A stretch of 64,000 bases of DNA, from NCBI RefSeq assembly GCF_000145255.1, contig NC_014394.1:1426001-1490000 (forward strand). Reading direction: 5' to 3'. The translations under genes and the position numbers were made by a program. Numbering within the stretch: the first letter of the stretch is position 1; each line of letters starts with the position of its first letter. Source of the DNA: Gallionella capsiferriformans ES-2 (GTDB lineage Bacteria > Pseudomonadota > Gammaproteobacteria > Burkholderiales > Gallionellaceae). Under the pieces are notes generated by a model. That model saw nothing but the letters and a program-made list of their open reading frames with translations, ran no database searches and was not told the origin of the DNA. Of this stretch, positions 5,474 to 49,473 are shown in pieces.

Positions 5474-6738
5474 GTCAGTTCCTTGTCGCGTGCATCCGTG
5501 ATGAAGAGCGCCGCGCTCACGCTGATGGCGGCAGCCACTGAAATATAGCCGCCCACCCAGGTGAGCCCCCCTGCCAGCACCAATTGCTGTGCGATATAGG
5601 GGGCAAGCGATGCGCCTAGAATGCCGCCCAGATTGTAGGCCGCACCCGCGCCGGTATAGCGCACTCGGGTCGGAAAGAGCTCCGGCAGCAGGGCGCCCAT
5701 AGGCGCGAAGGTGGCCCCCATCAAAAATAATTCCAGACACAGAAAGCCTGTAATTTGAAAAAGTGAGCCGCTCTCGAGTGCGGGGGCGAGTAGAAATCCT
5801 GACAGTAGGGCCGCTAAGCCTGCCGTGATGAGGACAGGACGGCGGCCGAACCGGTCCCCTAACCATGCCGAGAGCGGTGTAGCGGCCGCCATAAATAGCA
5901 CGGCGACGCACAGCATCAGCAAAAATTGCGGTCGGGGAATGCCAAGCGTCGTTGTGCCGTAACTCAAGCTAAACACCGTCGAGATATAAAACAAGGCATA
6001 GCACACCACCATCACTAGCGCGCCCAGTACCAGTGGCTTTGCATGATGACGGAACAATTCGGCGGCCGGTAGTTTGACGGCCTGTTGGGCGCTTTGCGCG
6101 AACACGGGTGTTTCGGTCAGCTTGAGCCGCACGTAAAGACCGATGATCACCAGGATTGCGCTGGCGAGAAACGGGATGCGCCATCCCCACTCGCGAAACT
6201 GTGCGTCATCTAGCAGTTGTGAGAGCAGCAAAAAACTGCCGACTGCCAGCAAAAAACCGACCGGCGGCCCAAGTTGCGGGAACATGCCAAACCAGCCGCG
6301 TCGTCCCTTAGGCGCATGTTCAGCAGCCAGCAGTGCGGCACCGCCCCATTCGCCTCCCAATCCGATTCCCTGACCAAAGCGCAACAGGCAGAGCAGGGCG
6401 GGCGCGCTCCAACCAATCAGCGCGTAGCCTGGCAGAAAACCGATCAGCGTGGTGCAACTGCCCATGACCAGCAAGGAGGCGGCTAGCGTGGTTTTTCTGC
6501 CGATTTTGTCGCCAAAATGGCCGAATAACAGCGCGCCGATGGGGCGTGCGACAAAGGCGATACCGAAGGTTAAAAATGCATTCAGAGCTTGCGTGGCAGG
6601 ATCGCTGGCAGGGAAAAACACAGGACCTATCACCATCGCCACAGCCAGACCGTAGATGTAAAAGTCGTAGAATTCAATTGCGGTGCCGATGAAACTGGCA
6701 AAGGCGATACGCAAGATGGAAGGATAAGTAGTCGTCAT
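5470..6738 (-). CDS. MFS transporter, metabolite:H+ symporter (MHS) family
   Basis: A 422-residue inner-membrane protein with about 12 hydrophobic segments. The N-terminus SFIGTAIEFYDFYIYGLAVAMVIGPVFFP and the loop FGHFGDKIGRKTTLAASLLVMG are typical of the MHS branch (ShiA, ProP, KgtP relatives), as is RFGQGIGLGGEWGGAALLAAEHAP. Substrates of this branch include organic acids, shikimate and compatible solutes; nothing in the sequence fixes the substrate. The gene sits between mutL and miaA, 43 bp after mutL, and overlaps miaA by 4 bp (ATGA), so the two are probably translationally coupled. The functional link to DNA repair or tRNA modification is not obvious and may be an insertion into an older mutL-miaA operon. 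Confidence 0.9.
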   Translation of the reverse strand: MTTTYPSILRIAFASFIGTAIEFYDFYIYGLAVAMVIGPVFFPASDPATQALNAFLTFGIAFVARPIGALLFGHFGDKIGRKTTLAASLLVMGSCTTLIGFLPGYALIGWSAPALLCLLRFGQGIGLGGEWGGAALLAAEHAPKGRRGWFGMFPQLGPPVGFLLAVGSFLLLSQLLDDAQFREWGWRIPFLASAILVIIGLYVRLKLTETPVFAQSAQQAVKLPAAELFRHHAKPLVLGALVMVVCYALFYISTVFSLSYGTTTLGIPRPQFLLMLCVAVLFMAAATPLSAWLGDRFGRRPVLITAGLAALLSGFLLAPALESGSLFQITGFLCLELFLMGATFAPMGALLPELFPTRVRYTGAGAAYNLGGILGASLAPYIAQQLVLAGGLTWVGGYISVAAAISVSAALFITDARDKELT

Positions 6739-6781
6739 TAAGTTGTACGTGATGAGTTGTCGTGCTTGCAGGTTTGTATCA

Positions 6782-8671
6782 TTACTGTCCGCGCATAAAC
6801 ATCTTGTCGAGTTCGTTCATCGTCAGCGCAAACCAGGTCGGGCGACCGTGGTTGCACTGGCCTGACCGTTCGGTCTGTTCCATTTCGCGCAGCAGCGCGT
6901 TCATCTCAGGTACGCTCAAAATCCGGTTGGCACGCACCGCACCATGGCAGGCTAAGCTTGCCAGCAGCTCATTGCGGCGCTCAGTGAGCATCCTGCTGCC
7001 ACCGTATTTGCGCAGCTCGTTCAAGATGTCGCGCGCAGCCGCTTCCGCTTCCGCCTGTTTGAGCAGCACCGGCATGGCACGGATCGCAATCTGGGTGGGC
7101 GAGAGCGGTTTAATGTCAAATCCCAGCTTATGCAGTGCGTCCTGCTCGGCTTCTACCGTTGCGACATCGTGCGCATCGGTTTGAAAACACACCGGAATCA
7201 GCAAAGGCTGCGTGGCGATGGCTTCATGATCCATAGAAGCCTTGAGCTTTTCATAAACGATACGCTCGTGAGCTGCGTGCATGTCCACGACGATCAGCCC
7301 CTGCTCATTTTGCGCGAGGATATACACGCCGGACAACTGGGCTAAGGCAAAACCTAAAGGATGGTCAGTGGAGAGTGGATAGTGGGAAGTCGTTGGTGAT
7401 TGGATAGCGGGCAGTGAGGAGCTCTCAGCGGGAGCAGTTTGCCCGCTTTCCACTTTCCACTCACCACTTGCCGCTTCTCCACTCTTTACTCCCCACTTTC
7501 CACTCCCCGTTTGTGCTTCCCACACCTGATAGGTTGCATTGAGTTGCGCCGCAGCGAGCGGTATGCGTTGCTGAGTCGGAATGGGTGCCTGAATTGCCCT
7601 CTCCTGGGTCGCAGCGCCCGACAGGGCAGGGGCGGCGAGTGCCTGTTGCAGGGTATGGAAAATGAACTGGTGTATGCCTTGCCCCTCGCGAAAGCGCACC
7701 TCAGACTTAGCAGGATGCACGTTTACGTCCACTTGCTCCGCCGGTAGCTCAAGAAACAAGACAAAGGCGGGGTGCCGCTGGTGGTGCAGGATGTCCTGAT
7801 AAGCCTGACGTAGCGCGTGACTGGCCACTTTGTCGCGCACGAAGCGGCCGTTAACGAAAAAGTATTGTGCATCGCGATTGCCGCGCGAATAGGCGGGCAG
7901 GGCGGCAAGTCCATGCAAGGTCAGGTTGGCCGCGCTGCCCGATACGGGAACGGCCGCATTGCCGAATTCAGCACCGAGCAGCGCTGCAACGCGCTTTAAT
8001 GCGGCATTTTGCATCCAACCGCCATCGTCTTCGCCCCTCAATCCTCGATCCTCAATCCTCAATCCTGGATTGAGTTGCCAGACGGTACGGCCGTTGTGTT
8101 GCAGCGAAAATCCGACATCGGGACGCGAGAGCGCGATGCGCTTGAAGGCTTCTTCGCAGTGGGCGAATTCGGTCGCCTCGGATTTTAAAAATTTACGGCG
8201 CGCGGGGGTGTTGAAATACAACTCGCGCAACTCGATCGTGGTGCCCGGCGGATGGCTTGCAGGCGCGGCCTCGCTGATACGTCCATCGATTGCCTCAACC
8301 ATCCAGCCGTGAGTGTCATGTGCAGTGCGGCTCGATAAGGTGAGCTGTGCCACAGCGGCCATACTGGCCAGCGCCTCACCGCGAAAGCCCATGCTTTCAA
8401 CGCTTTGCAGATCGTCCAGTGACGCGATTTTGCTCGTGGCATGGCGCATGAGTGCGAGCGCGAGTTCATCGCGCACGATGCCGCGCCCGTTGTCGCGTAT
8501 ACGCAGCAGTTTGATGCCGCCATTATCCAGTTGGACCGTGATATCGGTGGCGCCTGCATCCAGACTGTTTTCCAGCAGTTCCTTGAGTGCGGCCGCCGGA
8601 CGTTCGATCACCTCGCCTGCAGCGATCTGGTTGATCAGGAGTTCGGGCAATACGCGGATGTATGAAGGCAT
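6782..8671 (-). CDS. mutL: DNA mismatch repair protein MutL
   Basis: A 629-residue GHKL ATPase that links MutS recognition to strand removal. The N-terminal domain shows ELLENSLDAGATDI (motif I), RDNGRGI (II), ATSKI and GFRGEALASM (III). The C-terminal dimerisation domain contains DMHAAHERIVYE, which fits the endonuclease motif DQHA(x)2E(x)4E with M for Q, plus SLACHGAVRA and CNHGRPTWF, the other metal-site motifs. The protein is therefore likely a nicking endonuclease, unlike E. coli MutL. Two low-complexity stretches encoded by 7-bp repeats interrupt it: residues about 202-213 (LRIEDRGLRGED) late in the N-terminal domain and about 388-438 in the linker. First gene of the mutL-MFS-miaA operon, divergent from pntA. 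Confidence 0.96.
   Translation of the reverse strand: MPSYIRVLPELLINQIAAGEVIERPAAALKELLENSLDAGATDITVQLDNGGIKLLRIRDNGRGIVRDELALALMRHATSKIASLDDLQSVESMGFRGEALASMAAVAQLTLSSRTAHDTHGWMVEAIDGRISEAAPASHPPGTTIELRELYFNTPARRKFLKSEATEFAHCEEAFKRIALSRPDVGFSLQHNGRTVWQLNPGLRIEDRGLRGEDDGGWMQNAALKRVAALLGAEFGNAAVPVSGSAANLTLHGLAALPAYSRGNRDAQYFFVNGRFVRDKVASHALRQAYQDILHHQRHPAFVLFLELPAEQVDVNVHPAKSEVRFREGQGIHQFIFHTLQQALAAPALSGAATQERAIQAPIPTQQRIPLAAAQLNATYQVWEAQTGSGKWGVKSGEAASGEWKVESGQTAPAESSSLPAIQSPTTSHYPLSTDHPLGFALAQLSGVYILAQNEQGLIVVDMHAAHERIVYEKLKASMDHEAIATQPLLIPVCFQTDAHDVATVEAEQDALHKLGFDIKPLSPTQIAIRAMPVLLKQAEAEAAARDILNELRKYGGSRMLTERRNELLASLACHGAVRANRILSVPEMNALLREMEQTERSGQCNHGRPTWFALTMNELDKMFMRGQ
7362..7509. repeat. 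Facing inverted heptanucleotide arrays in the mutL linker
   Basis: Left array from 7362: TGGTCAG, TGGAGAG, TGGATAG, TGGGAAG, TCGTTGG, TGATTGG. Right array from 7446: CTTTCCA twice, CTCACCA, CTTGCCG, an 8-base unit, CTCTTTA, CTCCCCA, CTTTCCA, CTCCCCG. The two arrays are roughly reverse complements of one another, separated by about 40 bp. They encode residues about 388-438 of MutL, in frame, in the interdomain linker. Confidence 0.85.
8037..8071. repeat. Heptanucleotide repeat array in the mutL N-terminal domain
   Basis: Five consecutive 7-bp units on the plus strand: CTCAATC, CTCGATC, CTCAATC, CTCAATC, CTGGATT. They encode the peptide LRIEDRGLRGED at about residues 201-213 of MutL. Confidence 0.88.
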
Positions 8672-46540: not shown

Positions 46541-46638
46541 TACATGTATTCCTTTTTAAATCGGCATTAATACCATGCATAAGTCTAACCGAAAAAAATG
46601 GGTTGGGATTCACTATCATTCGTGATTCTGCAATTGCT

Positions 46639-46830
46639 TTATTCAATAGAAAACCGAACAGTGGGTAAGTAAAAGGCGAAACTATGCCGCCAACCGTTCC
46701 GAGTCGACCCATTACAAAATACGCATAATGTATAAAATGGCTGACGCATCCTATTGATTTTACTTAAAAATTCTTGTCCGTTAAATTCGTTTCCAGCGCC
46801 CGAAACTGTACCGAGTTTTGCCATGTTCAT
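46639..46830 (-). CDS. Chimeric 63-codon ORF crossing the left Xer junction
   Basis: An ATG at 46830 is preceded by GGGAG at ideal spacing. The first 32 codons lie inside the element (MAKLGTVSGAGNEFNGQEF and on to RQPF); the remaining 31 codons lie outside, reading through the central region, XerC arm and the 53-bp repeat (RNGWRHSFAFYLPTVR) to a stop at 46639. If the element were circular the same start would instead read into the ORF ending at 47647. In the integrated state this is probably a truncated product. No homology recognised. Confidence 0.45.
   Translation of the reverse strand: MNMAKLGTVSGAGNEFNGQEFLSKINRMRQPFYTLCVFCNGSTRNGWRHSFAFYLPTVRFSIE
46654..46734 (+). repeat. Left copy of the 81-bp Xer-associated direct repeat
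   Basis: Identical to 48310-48362 over its first 53 bases (46654-46706), then five mismatches within the next ten bases, then identical through the XerC arm and central hexamer. 76 of 81 positions match. The offset between copies is 1,656 bp. Confidence 0.95.
46718..46745 (+). other. dif-like left attachment site with degenerate XerD arm
   Basis: XerC arm AATACGCATAA (46718-46728) and central TGTATA (46729-46734) are the same as in the full dif at 48374. The XerD half is AAATGGCTGAC (46735-46745), matching the full XerD arm TTATGTCAAAT at only 5 of 11 positions. A junction with one good XerC arm and a poor XerD arm is what integration of a TLC-phi-type element leaves on one side. Confidence 0.8.
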
Positions 46831-46865
46831 GATTTTCTCCCGTCCTGTCAAAGTTAATTTGTGAT

Positions 46866-47195
46866 TCATACCGCCACCCGTACCAGCTTTGGTCGGCCTC
46901 GTTTGGGCGGCTGGGAACGCCTCAAGGCTGGCCCACGCGTCCCGATGATGAAGTGGTAGGGGTAGGCGACCTCCCAATAGCCGTTGTCCTGCCTGCGCCC
47001 CTCTAAACGCTCTTCAGCCAGCAGAGAACGAATCCGCCTAGGCGTCACAGCCCAATCCTTCGCCACGAACGACACAGGCACGAAATGACGAGGATTAAGC
47101 GCCTTCGGGGTGTCGGTCGTCGCGCACTCAGGCAGCTGGACTGCAACGCTCTCCCGTATCGTTCTGGCTATCGAGGTGCCGCGTTTTCCTGTCAT
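46866..47195 (-). CDS. Small basic protein, possible helix-turn-helix (third gene of the Xer element)
   Basis: 109 residues. The middle segment FVAKDWAVTPRRIRSLLAEERLEGRRQDNGYWEVAYPYHF resembles an excisionase/MerR-like winged helix: a helix pair that would recognise DNA followed by a wing-like strand. The N-terminus is TGKRGTSIARTIRES and the C-terminus is strongly basic (PPKRGRPKLVRVAV). Its ATG overlaps the stop of the XafT-like gene as ATGA. No precise family assignment; a DNA-binding regulator or accessory recombination factor is an inference. Confidence 0.6.
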   Translation of the reverse strand: MTGKRGTSIARTIRESVAVQLPECATTDTPKALNPRHFVPVSFVAKDWAVTPRRIRSLLAEERLEGRRQDNGYWEVAYPYHFIIGTRGPALRRSQPPKRGRPKLVRVAV

Positions 47196-47650
47196 GATCT
47201 TTCTCCAATTCGTTTAGGTTGAGCCTCAAGGGGCAGGGGGGTTGCAACTGGTTTGCGGCTGCGATCAGGGAACGGCAGCACCGTTGACGCGGTTTTCTGA
47301 ATCCCCGAACGGGCGTACATCTGCCGCCATAGTCGAGCCTGTGCGAACACGTGCTCAGTGTTCTCCAACCAGACCGCATCGAACGACCGCCCCGCAGGGT
47401 TGAACAACTCATGATTGCGTACCGTCCAGCCTTGCCAAGCAACACCAGGCAACGCATAACCCCGCAGGATGCGCAGCATCCGGTAGGCCATCCAAGGGAT
47501 ACGAGCGCCGCCCGTTTCCCAGTTCTGAATCGTCCGTGCCGTTACGTCCAAGGCCTGAGCGGCTTCCTTGCGGGTCATGCTGGCTTGCTTGCGCAGATCG
47601 GCGAAGTCCTGCGGATTGATCCAGCGGTATGCAGCTTTGCGGCGGCTCAT
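47192..47650 (-). CDS. XafT/VC1465-family Xer recombination activation factor (probable)
   Basis: 152 residues from the ATG at 47650, which overlaps the upstream stop (ATGA). It begins MSRRKAAYRWINPQDFADLRK, has an N-terminal helix-turn-helix (SMTRKEAAQALDVTARTIQNWETGGARIPW, about 19-48), then MAYRMLRILRGYALPGVAWQGW and an NPAGRSF motif. From memory this layout (HTH, then L-R-I-L-x-GYxLPG-x-x-W-x-GW, then P-x-GR-x-F) is that of the VC1465 family; in TLC-phi the member XafT lets XerCD recombine without FtsK. Context supports it strongly, since the gene lies between two Xer sites. A generic phage Cro-like regulator is the alternative. Confidence 0.72.
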   Translation of the reverse strand: MSRRKAAYRWINPQDFADLRKQASMTRKEAAQALDVTARTIQNWETGGARIPWMAYRMLRILRGYALPGVAWQGWTVRNHELFNPAGRSFDAVWLENTEHVFAQARLWRQMYARSGIQKTASTVLPFPDRSRKPVATPLPLEAQPKRIGERS

Positions 47651-48267
47651 GATTGCGCCCCGTTTTCCAACTCGATGCACAGCCGTGAGATCTCGTTCAG
47701 GGCTTCGATCGCTGCGATCACTTCCGGCTCGTTCGCCTCGAAGCTGTCTTGAAGCTCAACGGTCTGGCAGTACACCGCAAACGCCAGGTGCTTCAGCTGC
47801 TCTTCGGTCAACGTCAAAGTCAAAAGCGGTTTTTCAGAAGGGTGAATCCCTTCGGGTTTGACGTTCAGCGCGCACTGACCAAAATCTGAGCCGGAAAACC
47901 CTTCGCGGGTCGGCCGCGAAGCCGCCCCAGATATTTGGGAAGTCTGGTCAAGCGGAACGTTAAAAACGGTCAATTCCGTGTCCGCTGCGCTCTGGCTGGT
48001 TGACCTGCGGTCAACTTCGCCGTTGAGCTGGCCGACAGCTCCAGCCAAAATCGGCTCAATCCCAACAGCCGTAAGGGTTTGCGGGTGTTTTGCCGTGTAG
48101 TTGAAAAGGTGGAACAGTATTTTTTTCGCAGTTGATCGGCCTGTAAGCCACAGGCGGCGTGGGTTTGCGCCGTTTTGGCGTAGTGTTCCACAGTCGCAAT
48201 TTGAGACTGAATGGCTACGTGTTACCCCAGAAAAAGAATTATTTATTCGCGAAATTGTTCGCGACAA
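47647..48267 (-). CDS. First ORF of the Xer element, 5' end uncertain
   Basis: 206 codons if the TTG at 48267 is used, but no ribosome-binding site is apparent there. The frame stays open to the crossover point at 48390, where the dif XerD arm supplies an in-frame TAA. In a circular element the frame would join the ATG at 46830 and give 279 residues. The C-terminal ~60 residues (LTLTEEQLKHLAFAVYCQTVELQDSF, then EVIAAIEALNEISRLCIELE) look like a genuine two-helix domain; the N-terminal part is Ser/Thr/Arg-rich and overlaps strong hairpins, so it may not be coding. Its stop overlaps the XafT-like start. Function unknown. Confidence 0.45.
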   Translation of the reverse strand: MSRTISRINNSFSGVTRSHSVSNCDCGTLRQNGANPRRLWLTGRSTAKKILFHLFNYTAKHPQTLTAVGIEPILAGAVGQLNGEVDRRSTSQSAADTELTVFNVPLDQTSQISGAASRPTREGFSGSDFGQCALNVKPEGIHPSEKPLLTLTLTEEQLKHLAFAVYCQTVELQDSFEANEPEVIAAIEALNEISRLCIELENGAQS

Positions 48268-48294
48268 GAAACAGGCTGCGCCTGTCTTCCTTGT
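48248..48294. other. Two abutting hairpins inside the Xer element
   Basis: Hairpin 1: CGCGAA (48248-48253), 4-base loop, TTCGCG (48258-48263). Hairpin 2 starts at the next base: ACAAG-AA-ACAGGC (48264-48276), loop TGC, then GCCTGT, TT and CTTGT ending at 48294 with two single-base bulges. Back-to-back hairpins are a feature of rolling-circle and filamentous-phage origins; that role is inferred. Confidence 0.6.
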
Positions 48295-48309
48295 CAGCTC
48301 ACAAAAACG

Positions 48310-48390
48310 CCGAACAGTGGGTAAGTAAAAGGCGAAACTATGCCGCCAACCGTTCCGAGTCGGCCTATTCTGAAATACGCATAATGTATA
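48310..48390 (+). repeat. Right copy of the 81-bp Xer-associated direct repeat
   Basis: Matches 46654-46734 at 76 of 81 positions, the first 53 perfectly. It ends at the last base of the dif central hexamer, which is where Xer strand exchange occurs. Confidence 0.95.
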
Positions 48391-48401
48391 TTATGTCAAA
48401 T
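48374..48401 (+). other. Chromosome dimer resolution site dif
   Basis: XerC arm AATACGCATAA (48374-48384), central hexamer TGTATA, XerD arm TTATGTCAAAT (48391-48401). Compared with the E. coli dif, the last seven bases of the XerC arm and the whole central region are identical and the XerD arm differs at one base. XerC and XerD resolve chromosome dimers here. The gene-strand switch around this point supports it as the functional terminus site. Confidence 0.92.
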
Positions 48402-48412
48402 TGATAAGCAAA

Positions 48413-48715
48413 TTAAGAAGGCTGAGCAGGATTGTGCAAAGCGTCCCAAAAGCGCTTTTCAGCATGGGGATTCCGAAGGTTTGCCGCATGCCGGCATAGC
48501 AACCGCACCAACCCACTATCAACGCCTGCTTCATGCAGGCGTTTTTTTTCAGCTGCAATCAGGCGGTATTGTTTACTCCGACGAGCCTCATTGAACGAAC
48601 GGAAATAACGAAGAGACCAGTAATAGTTCAAAATCTGGCCTGACCAATTCGGGTATGCGTGAAATATCATTTTTTTGGGATAACACCGCAACCACGCAAA
48701 ACAAAGGCGAAACAC
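48413..48715 (-). CDS. Hypothetical 100-residue protein next to dif
   Basis: ATG at 48715; an internal ATG (MIFHAYPNWSGQIL) is an alternative start. The C-terminal half (KQYRLIAAEKKRLHEAGVDSGLVRLLCRHAANLRNPHAEKRFWDAL) looks like a real, basic helical protein, but I do not recognise a family. A strong plus-strand terminator-like hairpin lies inside its coding sequence (codons for RLHEAGVD). It stops 11 bp from dif and may be a remnant of an older element at this site. Confidence 0.45.
   Translation of the reverse strand: MFRLCFAWLRCYPKKMIFHAYPNWSGQILNYYWSLRYFRSFNEARRSKQYRLIAAEKKRLHEAGVDSGLVRLLCRHAANLRNPHAEKRFWDALHNPAQPS
48521..48549 (+). terminator. Terminator-like hairpin on the plus strand, inside a minus-strand ORF
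   Basis: Stem AACGCCTGC (48521-48529), loop TTCAT, stem GCAGGCGTT (48535-48543), followed by T tract to 48549. No plus-strand gene is visible between dif and this hairpin. It could block transcription running from the right arm or the element, or simply reflect coding sequence. Confidence 0.6.
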
Positions 48716-48850: not shown

Positions 48851-48970
48851 GACGACTGAGCATAGGATCTTAAAGATTCTTGTTTACCTCCAGAAGAGCG
48901 CCCGCAGTGGCGACTAAATTGCTAATGCAGTGAAAATCATTTAGTCTTGACCATCAACAGAAGGAAAAGT

Positions 48971-49243
48971 ATGCGGATAATTTACAGACAACACGCGATC
49001 AAGAGAATGCATGAGCGTTGCATATCGGAAATTGACGTAGAACAAGCAATAGAATCAGGGACAATTATTGAGGCATACCCGAATGACACGCCCTACCCTA
49101 GCGCACTATTACTAGGAAACGCAGGTAACAAGGCCGTTCATGTTGTATACGCCGACTCCGTCGACGAAGACCTCAGAATCATAATCACGGTGTACGAGCC
49201 AAACCCAGAAATCTGGTTCGAAGACCTGAAAACAAGGAGATAG
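48971..49243 (+). CDS. DUF4258-domain protein, probable toxin of a toxin-antitoxin pair
   Basis: 90 residues from the ATG at 48971 (AAGGAAAAGT upstream). It begins MRIIYRQHAIKRMHERCISEIDVEQAIESGTIIEAYPNDTPYPSALLLG and continues to VHVVYADS and RIIITVYEPNPEIWFEDLKTRR, the pattern of DUF4258 proteins (ArtA/MqsR-like fold: H-A-x-x-R-M-x-x-R-x-I, then I-x-T-V-Y-x-P). Followed after 2 bp by a YgiT-type zinc-finger gene, the usual antitoxin partner. Likely an RNA-targeting toxin; no activity is shown by sequence alone. Confidence 0.8.
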   Translation: MRIIYRQHAIKRMHERCISEIDVEQAIESGTIIEAYPNDTPYPSALLLGNAGNKAVHVVYADSVDEDLRIIITVYEPNPEIWFEDLKTRR

Positions 49244-49245
49244 AA

Positions 49246-49473
49246 ATGAAATGCCCAATTTGCAAACACGGAAACACACATCAAGGCGTTGCAAGCATTA
49301 CGCTCGAGCGCGGTAGCTCGACAATGATGTTTAAAAACGTACCCGCAGAAGTTTGCGAAAATTGCGGAGAGGCTTACCACGATGCGAAAATCACCCGATC
49401 ATTGTTAGAGCAGGCAAATCAGGCAGCACAGCATGGTGTTGAATTGGATGTAAGGCGGTATGCAACAGCGTGA
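49246..49473 (+). CDS. YgiT-type zinc-finger protein, probable antitoxin
   Basis: 75 residues. Two zinc-binding pairs, MKCPICKHG and AEVCENCGEAYHDA (CxxC...CxxC), with a short beta-rich middle, match the MqsA/YgiT N-terminal domain. The separate HTH domain of MqsA is absent. AAGGAG precedes the ATG, which is two bases after the toxin stop. A terminator follows 24 bp downstream, so the two genes form a compact cassette. Confidence 0.82.
   Translation: MKCPICKHGNTHQGVASITLERGSSTMMFKNVPAEVCENCGEAYHDAKITRSLLEQANQAAQHGVELDVRRYATA

Follow-up and report, generated by a model that had tools for sequence, protein, structure and literature searches.

A XafT-type element between two dif-type sites

The chromosome terminus of Gallionella capsiferriformans ES-2 carries a 1,656-bp element that lies between two dif-type attachment (att) sites and encodes a protein of the VC1465/XafT family. 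The DNA analyzed, here called the window, is a stretch of 64,000 nucleotides (NC_014394.1, positions 1,426,001 to 1,490,000) from a genome that consists of a single contig of 3,162,471 bases (G000), and coordinates given without a locus label are positions in this window. The element occupies positions 46718-48401 between a degenerate dif on the left and a full dif on the right. Specifically, the left att site (46718-46745, plus strand) is composed of the XerC arm AATACGCATAA (46718-46728), the center TGTATA (46729-46734) and the degenerate XerD arm AAATGGCTGAC (46735-46745), whereas the right att site (48374-48401, plus strand) is a full dif in which the same XerC arm, AATACGCATAA, and the same center are followed by the XerD arm TTATGTCAAAT. 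The core TACGCATAATGTATA occurs three times in the 64 kb when up to two mismatches are allowed, compared with 0.08 occurrences expected, and both exact matches are the two att sites. The GC skew changes sign at about 46-50 kb of the window, as at a terminus. The original prediction, made from the letters of the window alone, had described just such a segment, with a full dif on the right and a left site that shares the XerC arm and central hexamer and has a degenerate XerD arm; the sites, their spacing and the identities of their parts are all confirmed.

The xafT-like gene (47192-47650, minus strand) encodes 152 amino acids from an ATG at 47650. The open reading frame (ORF) that was scored extends over 47192-47680 (minus strand), and it is the start at 47650 that shares ATGA with the end of the upstream ORF. 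This protein had been assigned to the VC1465/XafT family from its layout, and a profile search bears this out, with 86.6 bits against NF040522 (VC1465_fam, 'Xer recombination activation factor'; curated cut-off 70) and 77.8 bits against the Pfam family DUF3653 (cut-off 22.4). The possibility of an ordinary repressor-type helix-turn-helix (HTH) protein, or of a member of an unrelated HTH family, was set aside because the protein passes the XafT family's own cut-off. XafT is named as a XerD-activating factor in PMC9765430, and the function of the window protein, taken here from the name of its family, would be to activate XerD.

Beside xafT lies a gene for a 109-amino-acid protein, P0002 (46866-47195, minus strand), which matches no family over cut-off in Pfam, PHROG and NF-type family scans. 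Its structural model (mean predicted local distance difference test score, pLDDT, of 73) has the order strand-helix-helix-strand-strand and suggests a winged helix, perhaps of the MerR, Xis or BldC type. Foldseek matches include BldC, RacA and a mycobacteriophage Xis with probabilities of 0.95-1.0 but E values of 0.1-0.4, which makes a MerR/Xis-like winged helix a lead. As the original prediction stated, there is no recognizable replication or capsid gene, in that the three main proteins of the element gave no match to a replication, coat or recombinase family. The locus thus shows traits of the TLC class of integrative mobile elements exploiting Xer (IMEXs), as PMC4246890 defines the class: integration at dif with a full dif on one side and a dif-like site on the other, an attP with a conserved XerC arm and center and a degenerate XerD arm, and no site-specific recombinase family over cut-off among those three proteins. 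Its reading as a minimal XafT element is supported.

Similar elements in Gallionellaceae and beyond

The element is not a one-off but a member of a family of minimal TLC-class IMEXs. A DNA search of 61 genomes (its own and 60 relatives) gave matches in 31, many of them solely at dif and the adjacent box region described below, and matches further inside the element in nine (G000, G001, G009, G013, G016, G027, G028, G030 and G032). A profile of 12 XafT proteins (A1), searched against 158 Gallionellaceae genomes at an E value of 1e-20, identified XafT in 17, and 14 of these hold a complete element between two dif-type sites. These complete elements measure 1656 bp (window), 1932 (L013), 1772 (L016), 1798 (L017), 1986 (L018), 2026 (L019), 1125 (L020), 1760 (L077), 1761 (L086), 1751 (L089), 2031 (L090), 2025 (L092), 1899 (L178) and 1678 bp (L183). 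All 14 encode XafT and a P0002-like protein and have both ends in common, and the XafT proteins of the first 12 elements are 56-86% identical to that of the window. The remaining three are incomplete: L181 is cut by a contig end, L184 lacks a left site by the pattern used, and in L078 xafT is interrupted by an in-frame stop and a single site was found. Also left out of the count are G032, where the element is split over two contigs, and G016, where it meets a contig end and lacks xafT. The ORFs of the 13 other elements were listed and a subset scanned against families, and seven further small ORFs of the relatives gave no Pfam family over cut-off. The relatives hold the segment at dif, rather than away from it. 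The original prediction regarded a XafT element this small as new; the minimal reading stands, and the small size is typical of these relatives. A plasmid-borne family was set aside, as no plasmid match appeared at an E value of 1e-8.

A profile of P0002 gave four matches in 399 genomes from across the order, all in Gallionellaceae. The VC1465 family model gave nine matches in the same sample at 1e-12, seven of them over the family cut-off, and all seven genomes hold minimal elements at a dif-type site. Four are Gallionellaceae, and the others are G204 (L259; 1556 bp), G205 (L195; two tandem units of 1507 and 1417 bp) and G470 (L260; 1497 bp). The two matches below cut-off are G269 (L262), which is cut by a contig end, and G218 (L261), which looks integrase-type and in which no dif-type site was found. 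In a sample of 369 genomes from the class, three match at 1e-15; the third, G692 (L196), is below cut-off (61.0 versus 70 bits), and its 930-bp unit (6327-7257 of the reverse complement) is the smallest seen. A search of the family around G692 with the profile of the second lineage found nothing in seven genomes. A further lineage was found in IMG/VR with the A1 profile, comprising L096 (two tandem copies of 1560 and 1561 bp), L097 (1599 bp), L098 (1561 bp), L099 (1495 bp) and L200, which is the right end of an element. Outside Gallionellaceae, XafT-type elements at dif thus span 0.9-1.6 kb.

Two minimal units stand in tandem at dif in L195 (6237-9161) and in L096 (2214-5335 of the reverse complement). 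The inner junction in both arrays restores a whole xafT ORF, such that the left copy could be expressed. Separately, L079, L080, L081 and L261 encode VC1465-like proteins beside apparent tyrosine integrases (by inspection), with no dif-type site by the patterns used, and the family may therefore not be limited to Xer-exploiting elements.

An open reading frame across attP

When the ends of the window element are joined as in a circle, attP falls within an ORF, here called ORF1. Its 5' part (46746-46830, minus strand) starts with ATGAACATG at 46830, reads MNMAKLGTV..., and is continuous across attP with 48373-47647. This 3' part (47647-48373, minus strand) ends in a stop that overlaps the xafT start as ATGA (47647-47650). 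Integration parts it from its own start, and in the prophage the 5' part instead runs out through the left site into the chromosome, to a stop at 46639. With the ends joined, the frame is open through the degenerate XerD arm, the center, the XerC arm and the right end. The start is conserved on the minus strand downstream of P0002 as GGAAAATC ATGAACATG and variants thereof, encoding MNMAKLGTV or similar, with GTG as the start codon in L016.

The same arrangement, with attP inside the first ORF of the operon and upstream of xafT, is found in the circular form of all 14 complete elements. In the first 12, the ORF across attP has 124-381 codons, a length that 0-29 of 400 shuffled versions of this stretch attain (weakest in L019 with 29, L018 with 13 and L092 with 8). 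The two elements fetched after the pattern had been noticed, L178 and L183, both fit, with ATGA. Viewed differently, one of the six frames over attP is 136-404 codons long in every one of the 14, and the next best is 36-124. The ORF1 stop overlaps the next start as ATGA in nine of 12 elements, whereas in L018, L090 and L092 the ATG lies a few nucleotides before the stop. The frame used through the core varies, encoding YTLC in 9/12 and IHYA in 3/12 (L018, L077 and L090).

Stop codons for both of the frames used are present in the host dif. On the minus strand, the host XerD arm places TAA directly before the YTLC frame. For the IHYA frame, arms of the TTATGTC/TAAA kind supply TGA or TAA three codons ahead of it, whereas no stop occurs within four codons in the third frame. 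Every Gallionellaceae element that borders a full dif (12/12) has its used frame closed by the host XerD arm. The two that border an inovirus differ, with no stop in L017 and a TGA five codons away in L018. The right site also closes the used frame in L096b, L097, L098, L099, L195b and L196; the XerD arms of L096b and L097 are changed in their outer parts. In L096-L099 and L195, xafT itself starts 14-21 nt beyond the core, after a Shine-Dalgarno-like stretch, and the xafT frame of L196 has no stop around the whole circle, which is less telling at 71% GC.

Judged from this anatomy, integration may act as a switch on xafT, and the candidate signals for transcription cut both ways. Positions 46600-48450 contain five promoter-like matches, compared with 0.7 by shuffles. 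One of these (46784-46757, minus strand) lies between the ORF1 start and the left site, from where it would reach xafT in the circle only; a match in the right end is weighed further below. A candidate promoter at TTTGACAGG before the ORF1 start was rejected, having no fitting -10 by eye and being absent from the promoter-like matches.

A different interpretation is that ORF1, instead of serving as a gate for xafT, encodes a real protein, such as a regulator, that has distinct circular and prophage forms, comparable to integration-dependent immunity in mycobacteriophages. The attP of phage BPs lies within its repressor gene, according to PMC4557955, residues such as YTLC, FAFD and YVIPG are kept between elements, and the C-terminal parts are alike in the window and L013 (49% over 98 amino acids). 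However, the frame through attP is one in nine of 12 elements and another in three, and several of the apparent peptide motifs coincide with DNA features, namely the boxes, the hairpin and the att core. We judge this interpretation unlikely, though it retains the largest share among the alternatives considered.

Accessory boxes at fixed distances from attP

The DNA around attP carries short repeats of the pattern AACYRTDCC. In the window these are a left box, AACTGTACC (46804-46812, plus strand), 85 nt from the left XerC arm, and two right boxes, AACTATGCC (48336-48344, plus strand) and AACCGTTCC (48348-48356, plus strand), which lie 39 and 27 nt before the XerC arm, respectively. The plus strands of the 14 elements hold 35 such boxes, compared with a shuffle mean of 0.8 and maximum of 3, an excess that is not a clean probability because the pattern was drawn from these related sequences. 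Of the 35, 34 occupy fixed places, namely 39 nt before the right XerC arm in 12/14 elements, 27 nt before it in 10/14, and 64, 75 or 84-85 nt after the left arm in 12/14; the exception is in L017. While the reading frame changes, the spacing of the left boxes shifts by about one turn of the helix, an indication that a DNA-protein complex forms on attP. By eye, TATGTCAAAC upstream of the right boxes resembled an extra XerD site; this candidate, which overlaps ORF1 codons, was set aside.

Origin-like hairpins and filamentous phages

Most of the relatives contain an inovirus-like origin hairpin that could explain the missing replication gene. A hairpin with a TAC-type loop lies in the last 260 bp of 11 of the 14 elements and is equalled by no more than two of 200 shuffles. 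Outside Gallionellaceae, L259 (53/200) and L260 (168/200) have no significant hairpin in their last 260 bp, and L259 has one elsewhere, at 431. Hairpins that match phage sequences occur in several relatives, and the window copy is half a hairpin. Specifically, GGCTACGTGTTAC (48213-48225, plus strand) comprises 13 nt that correspond to one arm and the loop of a weak hairpin in L018. The 3' arm is missing, such that the putative origin looks damaged, and the window copy is probably immobile or impaired.

The type 1 hairpin, GTCCGGGTR-TTACATA-..-ACCCGGAC, is common to five elements. A scan of IMG/VR with TCCGGGTATTACATA yielded 43 matches in 41 stretches, and 11 matches on nine contigs have the full hairpin. 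Among the 43 matches, the gene context was read for these 11. All nine contigs (eight distinct ones, since L286 largely repeats L279) have a copy immediately 5' of a gene for a LIDW(L/M)T(L/I)R-type protein or within the start region of that gene. One such protein matches Phage_CRI (66.6 bits, cut-off 21.7); the assignment of the others as replication proteins, and the inovirus nature of the contigs, are by inspection. L279 and L286 each combine a satellite (the G013 element) with an inovirus-like phage, and the hairpin occurs in the satellite as well as in the phage. The type 2 hairpin, AGTTGCAGTGGTACT..ACTGCAACT, occurs in L089 and L013 and is complete in at least three loci among the 80 loci listed from IMG/VR. 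All three are near the start of a replication-like gene of the CDW..IRCPSSDTS kind (RstA-like by inspection).

Filamentous phages also lie beside some of the elements. L018 is followed by a 6.7-kb inovirus (L018:4314-11053; Zot, 62.7 bits; G2P-type Rep, 44.9 bits) and L017/L094 by an inovirus with a CRI-type replication gene. In both cases, representing two of the 14 elements, the leftmost phage gene points towards the att site and extends a little beyond it. Because IMG/VR selects its contigs for phage content, phage genes beside the elements found there are not independent evidence. BLAST comparisons of small elements with the neighboring phage gave nothing convincing in L018, L097 and L098 and 28 nt in L094. 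In L096 (reverse complement), a 47-nt stretch is shared at 83% identity between the element (877-923) and the phage (about 10461-10507; E 7e-8), and this is perhaps the origin of that lineage or another signal. At L084 (5248-13958), an 8.7-kb inovirus with Zot and a G2P-type Rep is itself at dif and has its own VC1465-like gene, which scores just 25.9 bits.

Replication need not involve a phage if one of the small ORFs is an unrecognized replication initiator, making the element a self-replicating mini-IMEX. P0002, ORF1 and the seven further small ORFs of the relatives are all without a Pfam family over cut-off, and TLC itself is described with an autonomous replication module in PMC4246890. 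Nevertheless, P0002 is modeled as a small winged helix, neither the frame nor most of the sequence of ORF1 is conserved, and the hairpins match sequences at phage replication genes of two kinds. We give this alternative little probability.

It is equally improbable, in our estimation, that the elements are dead relics of larger TLC-like or inovirus prophages reduced to their dif-proximal ends. The half hairpin of the window, the failure to find a matching replication gene in G000, and the existence of dif sites that keep the box region alone would agree with decay. Four sites of this last kind (L021, L022, L024 and L028) have a box region about 20-40 nt before the full dif (by eye) and no XafT or P0002 match at an E value of 1, as though only the right end of an element had survived. 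However, xafT, the P0002-like gene and both ends are common to all 14 elements, whose sizes fall in a narrow range despite the divergence of their XafT proteins. The ORF, the boxes and most hairpins are intact, and independent decay would hardly converge in this manner.

Comparison with known mobile elements

TLC-phi is about 5 kb in size. Like the window element, TLC-phi and TLC-Kn1 of Vibrio cholerae have a VC1465-family XafT and an attP with an intact XerC arm and center and a degenerate XerD arm. TLC sits at dif beside filamentous prophages (PMC4246890, PMC5357621), and is described as a satellite with a degenerate XerD arm, XerD-first reversible recombination and an autonomous replication module (PMC4246890). 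The last of these is a difference, given that no replication family is found among the three main proteins of the window element. In the TLC-Kn1 record, which is partial (HM134800.1; 1,877 bp), the depositors annotate another gene, VC1471-like, as disrupted by integration. The likeness to TLC-phi asserted in the original prediction holds for the att layout and the XafT family; the replication gene and the direction of xafT differ.

RS1 and other filamentous-phage satellites depend on filamentous phages, as we infer for the window family. RS1 carries its own replication genes, whereas no replication gene is recognized in the window element. Inoviruses with Phage_CRI or RstA-like replication proteins have origin-like hairpins in common with the family, and differ in encoding that protein together with other phage genes in several kilobases. 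Phage BPs likewise has its attP inside a gene whose product is altered by integration (PMC4557955). There it is the repressor that loses a C-terminal tag, whereas in the present family the first ORF is parted from its start and receives a stop from the host site. Judged by titles and abstracts, and with the main XafT paper (Midonet 2019, PNAS) left aside, the literature searched listed nothing on minimal XafT elements; priority for the small XafT elements and their ORF arrangement is unproven.

A satellite whose integration may switch its own activator

We regard it as fairly probable that the window element belongs to minimal satellites of filamentous (inovirus-type) phages that reside at dif, integrate with XafT, replicate in trans and switch xafT by integration. 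Host XerC and XerD would integrate and excise the element, acting on dif and on an attP with a degenerate XerD arm, and XafT would activate XerD such that FtsK is not needed. XafT, its winged-helix partner or both may bind the AACYRTDCC boxes that flank attP at fixed, helically phased distances. Lacking a replication gene, the circle would be replicated in trans when the Rep of a filamentous phage nicks the origin-like hairpin of most members, and the helper phage would also package the element. In the circle, an intact ORF1 that overlaps the start of the next gene (mostly as ATGA) may ensure that the operon is well expressed. Integration would remove the start and ribosome-binding site of ORF1, while a TAA or TGA in the host XerD arm ends the frame, and the resulting break may lower XafT and stabilize the prophage. 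Expression of xafT could be restored by a second copy of the satellite or by a phage integrated on the right with its leftmost gene directed towards the satellite. The att sites, family membership, box positions, ORF across attP, stops in dif and shared hairpins are all observed directly, and they suggest, rather than establish, XerD activation, box binding, trans-replication, packaging and the effect on expression.

A more general proposal, which we hold tentatively and consider slightly more doubtful than probable, is that there is a class of filamentous-phage satellites of about 1-2 kb that consist of an att site, a recombinase activator and a borrowed origin. Integration would be a switch that breaks the activator operon in attP, with dif supplying the stop, and the satellites would change phage by swapping a hairpin of about 27 nt.

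Several observations weigh against these readings. The best PHROG match of the XafT-like protein, over its HTH part, is annotated 'tail assembly protein' (36.2 bits), and xafT of TLC-Kn1 runs towards attP and ends in the XerC arm, whereas attP of the window element lies upstream of xafT inside ORF1. Two minimal elements, L259 and L260, and also TLC, are without the ORF arrangement. L259 and L260 carry the dif TAA yet have no ORF across attP; in L259 the first gene's own ribosome-binding site is inside attP, and in L260 a hairpin is located there. Moreover, the TAA comes with any dif of this type and is thus a consequence of its sequence, not proof of selection. Integration need not silence xafT, which has a start codon of its own and, in several members, also a Shine-Dalgarno-like stretch. 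The switch is further weakened by a promoter-like match inside the right end (48267-48238, minus strand), which could drive xafT in the prophage too. A terminator-like match lies on the minus strand just inside dif (48347-48331); four such matches were found versus 2.4 expected. On the opposite strand, 13 more boxes are found at variable positions. Regarding replication, there is no significant hairpin in the window (177 of 200 shuffles are as good), L018 (17/200) or L020 (91/200), and two other hairpin stem patterns had no matches in IMG/VR. G000 likewise has no match to one CRI-type replication protein, which alone shows little. No packaging signal came to light in an analysis that made no search aimed at one.

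Flanking sequences

To the left of the left att site, and running into it, is a 97-bp copy of the right end (R1; 46643-46739, plus strand) that is 88% identical to 48299-48395. Over the last 60 nt before the XerC arm, the identity of such copies is 0.92 in the window, 0.98 in L016, 0.73 in L178, 0.88 in L259, 0.98 in L196 and 0.97 in L098. Neither Xer recombination between the two sites nor simple Xer integration would produce R1. These copies are perhaps the remnant of an earlier tandem copy. On the other side, to the right of dif (48947-49473, plus strand), an ORF of 98 amino acids is followed by a gene for a YgiT-type zinc-finger protein (TIGR03831, 52.6 bits) in a toxin-antitoxin-like layout.

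Implications

The location of attP inside the first ORF of the operon, the origin-like hairpin in most members, the copy of the right end beside the left site and a small size that is typical of the family all go beyond the original prediction. If our reading is true, these are very small integrating satellites, close to the least that a mobile element needs, and they would offer a compact system, with candidate binding boxes at fixed distances, in which to learn how XafT takes the place of FtsK. They would also represent a simple form of self-stabilizing integration in which the host's own dif is part of the switch, and would indicate that the origins of filamentous phages can be copied and swapped by their parasites. 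Furthermore, dif is often taken as a clean landmark of the chromosome, and may hide arrays of such elements.

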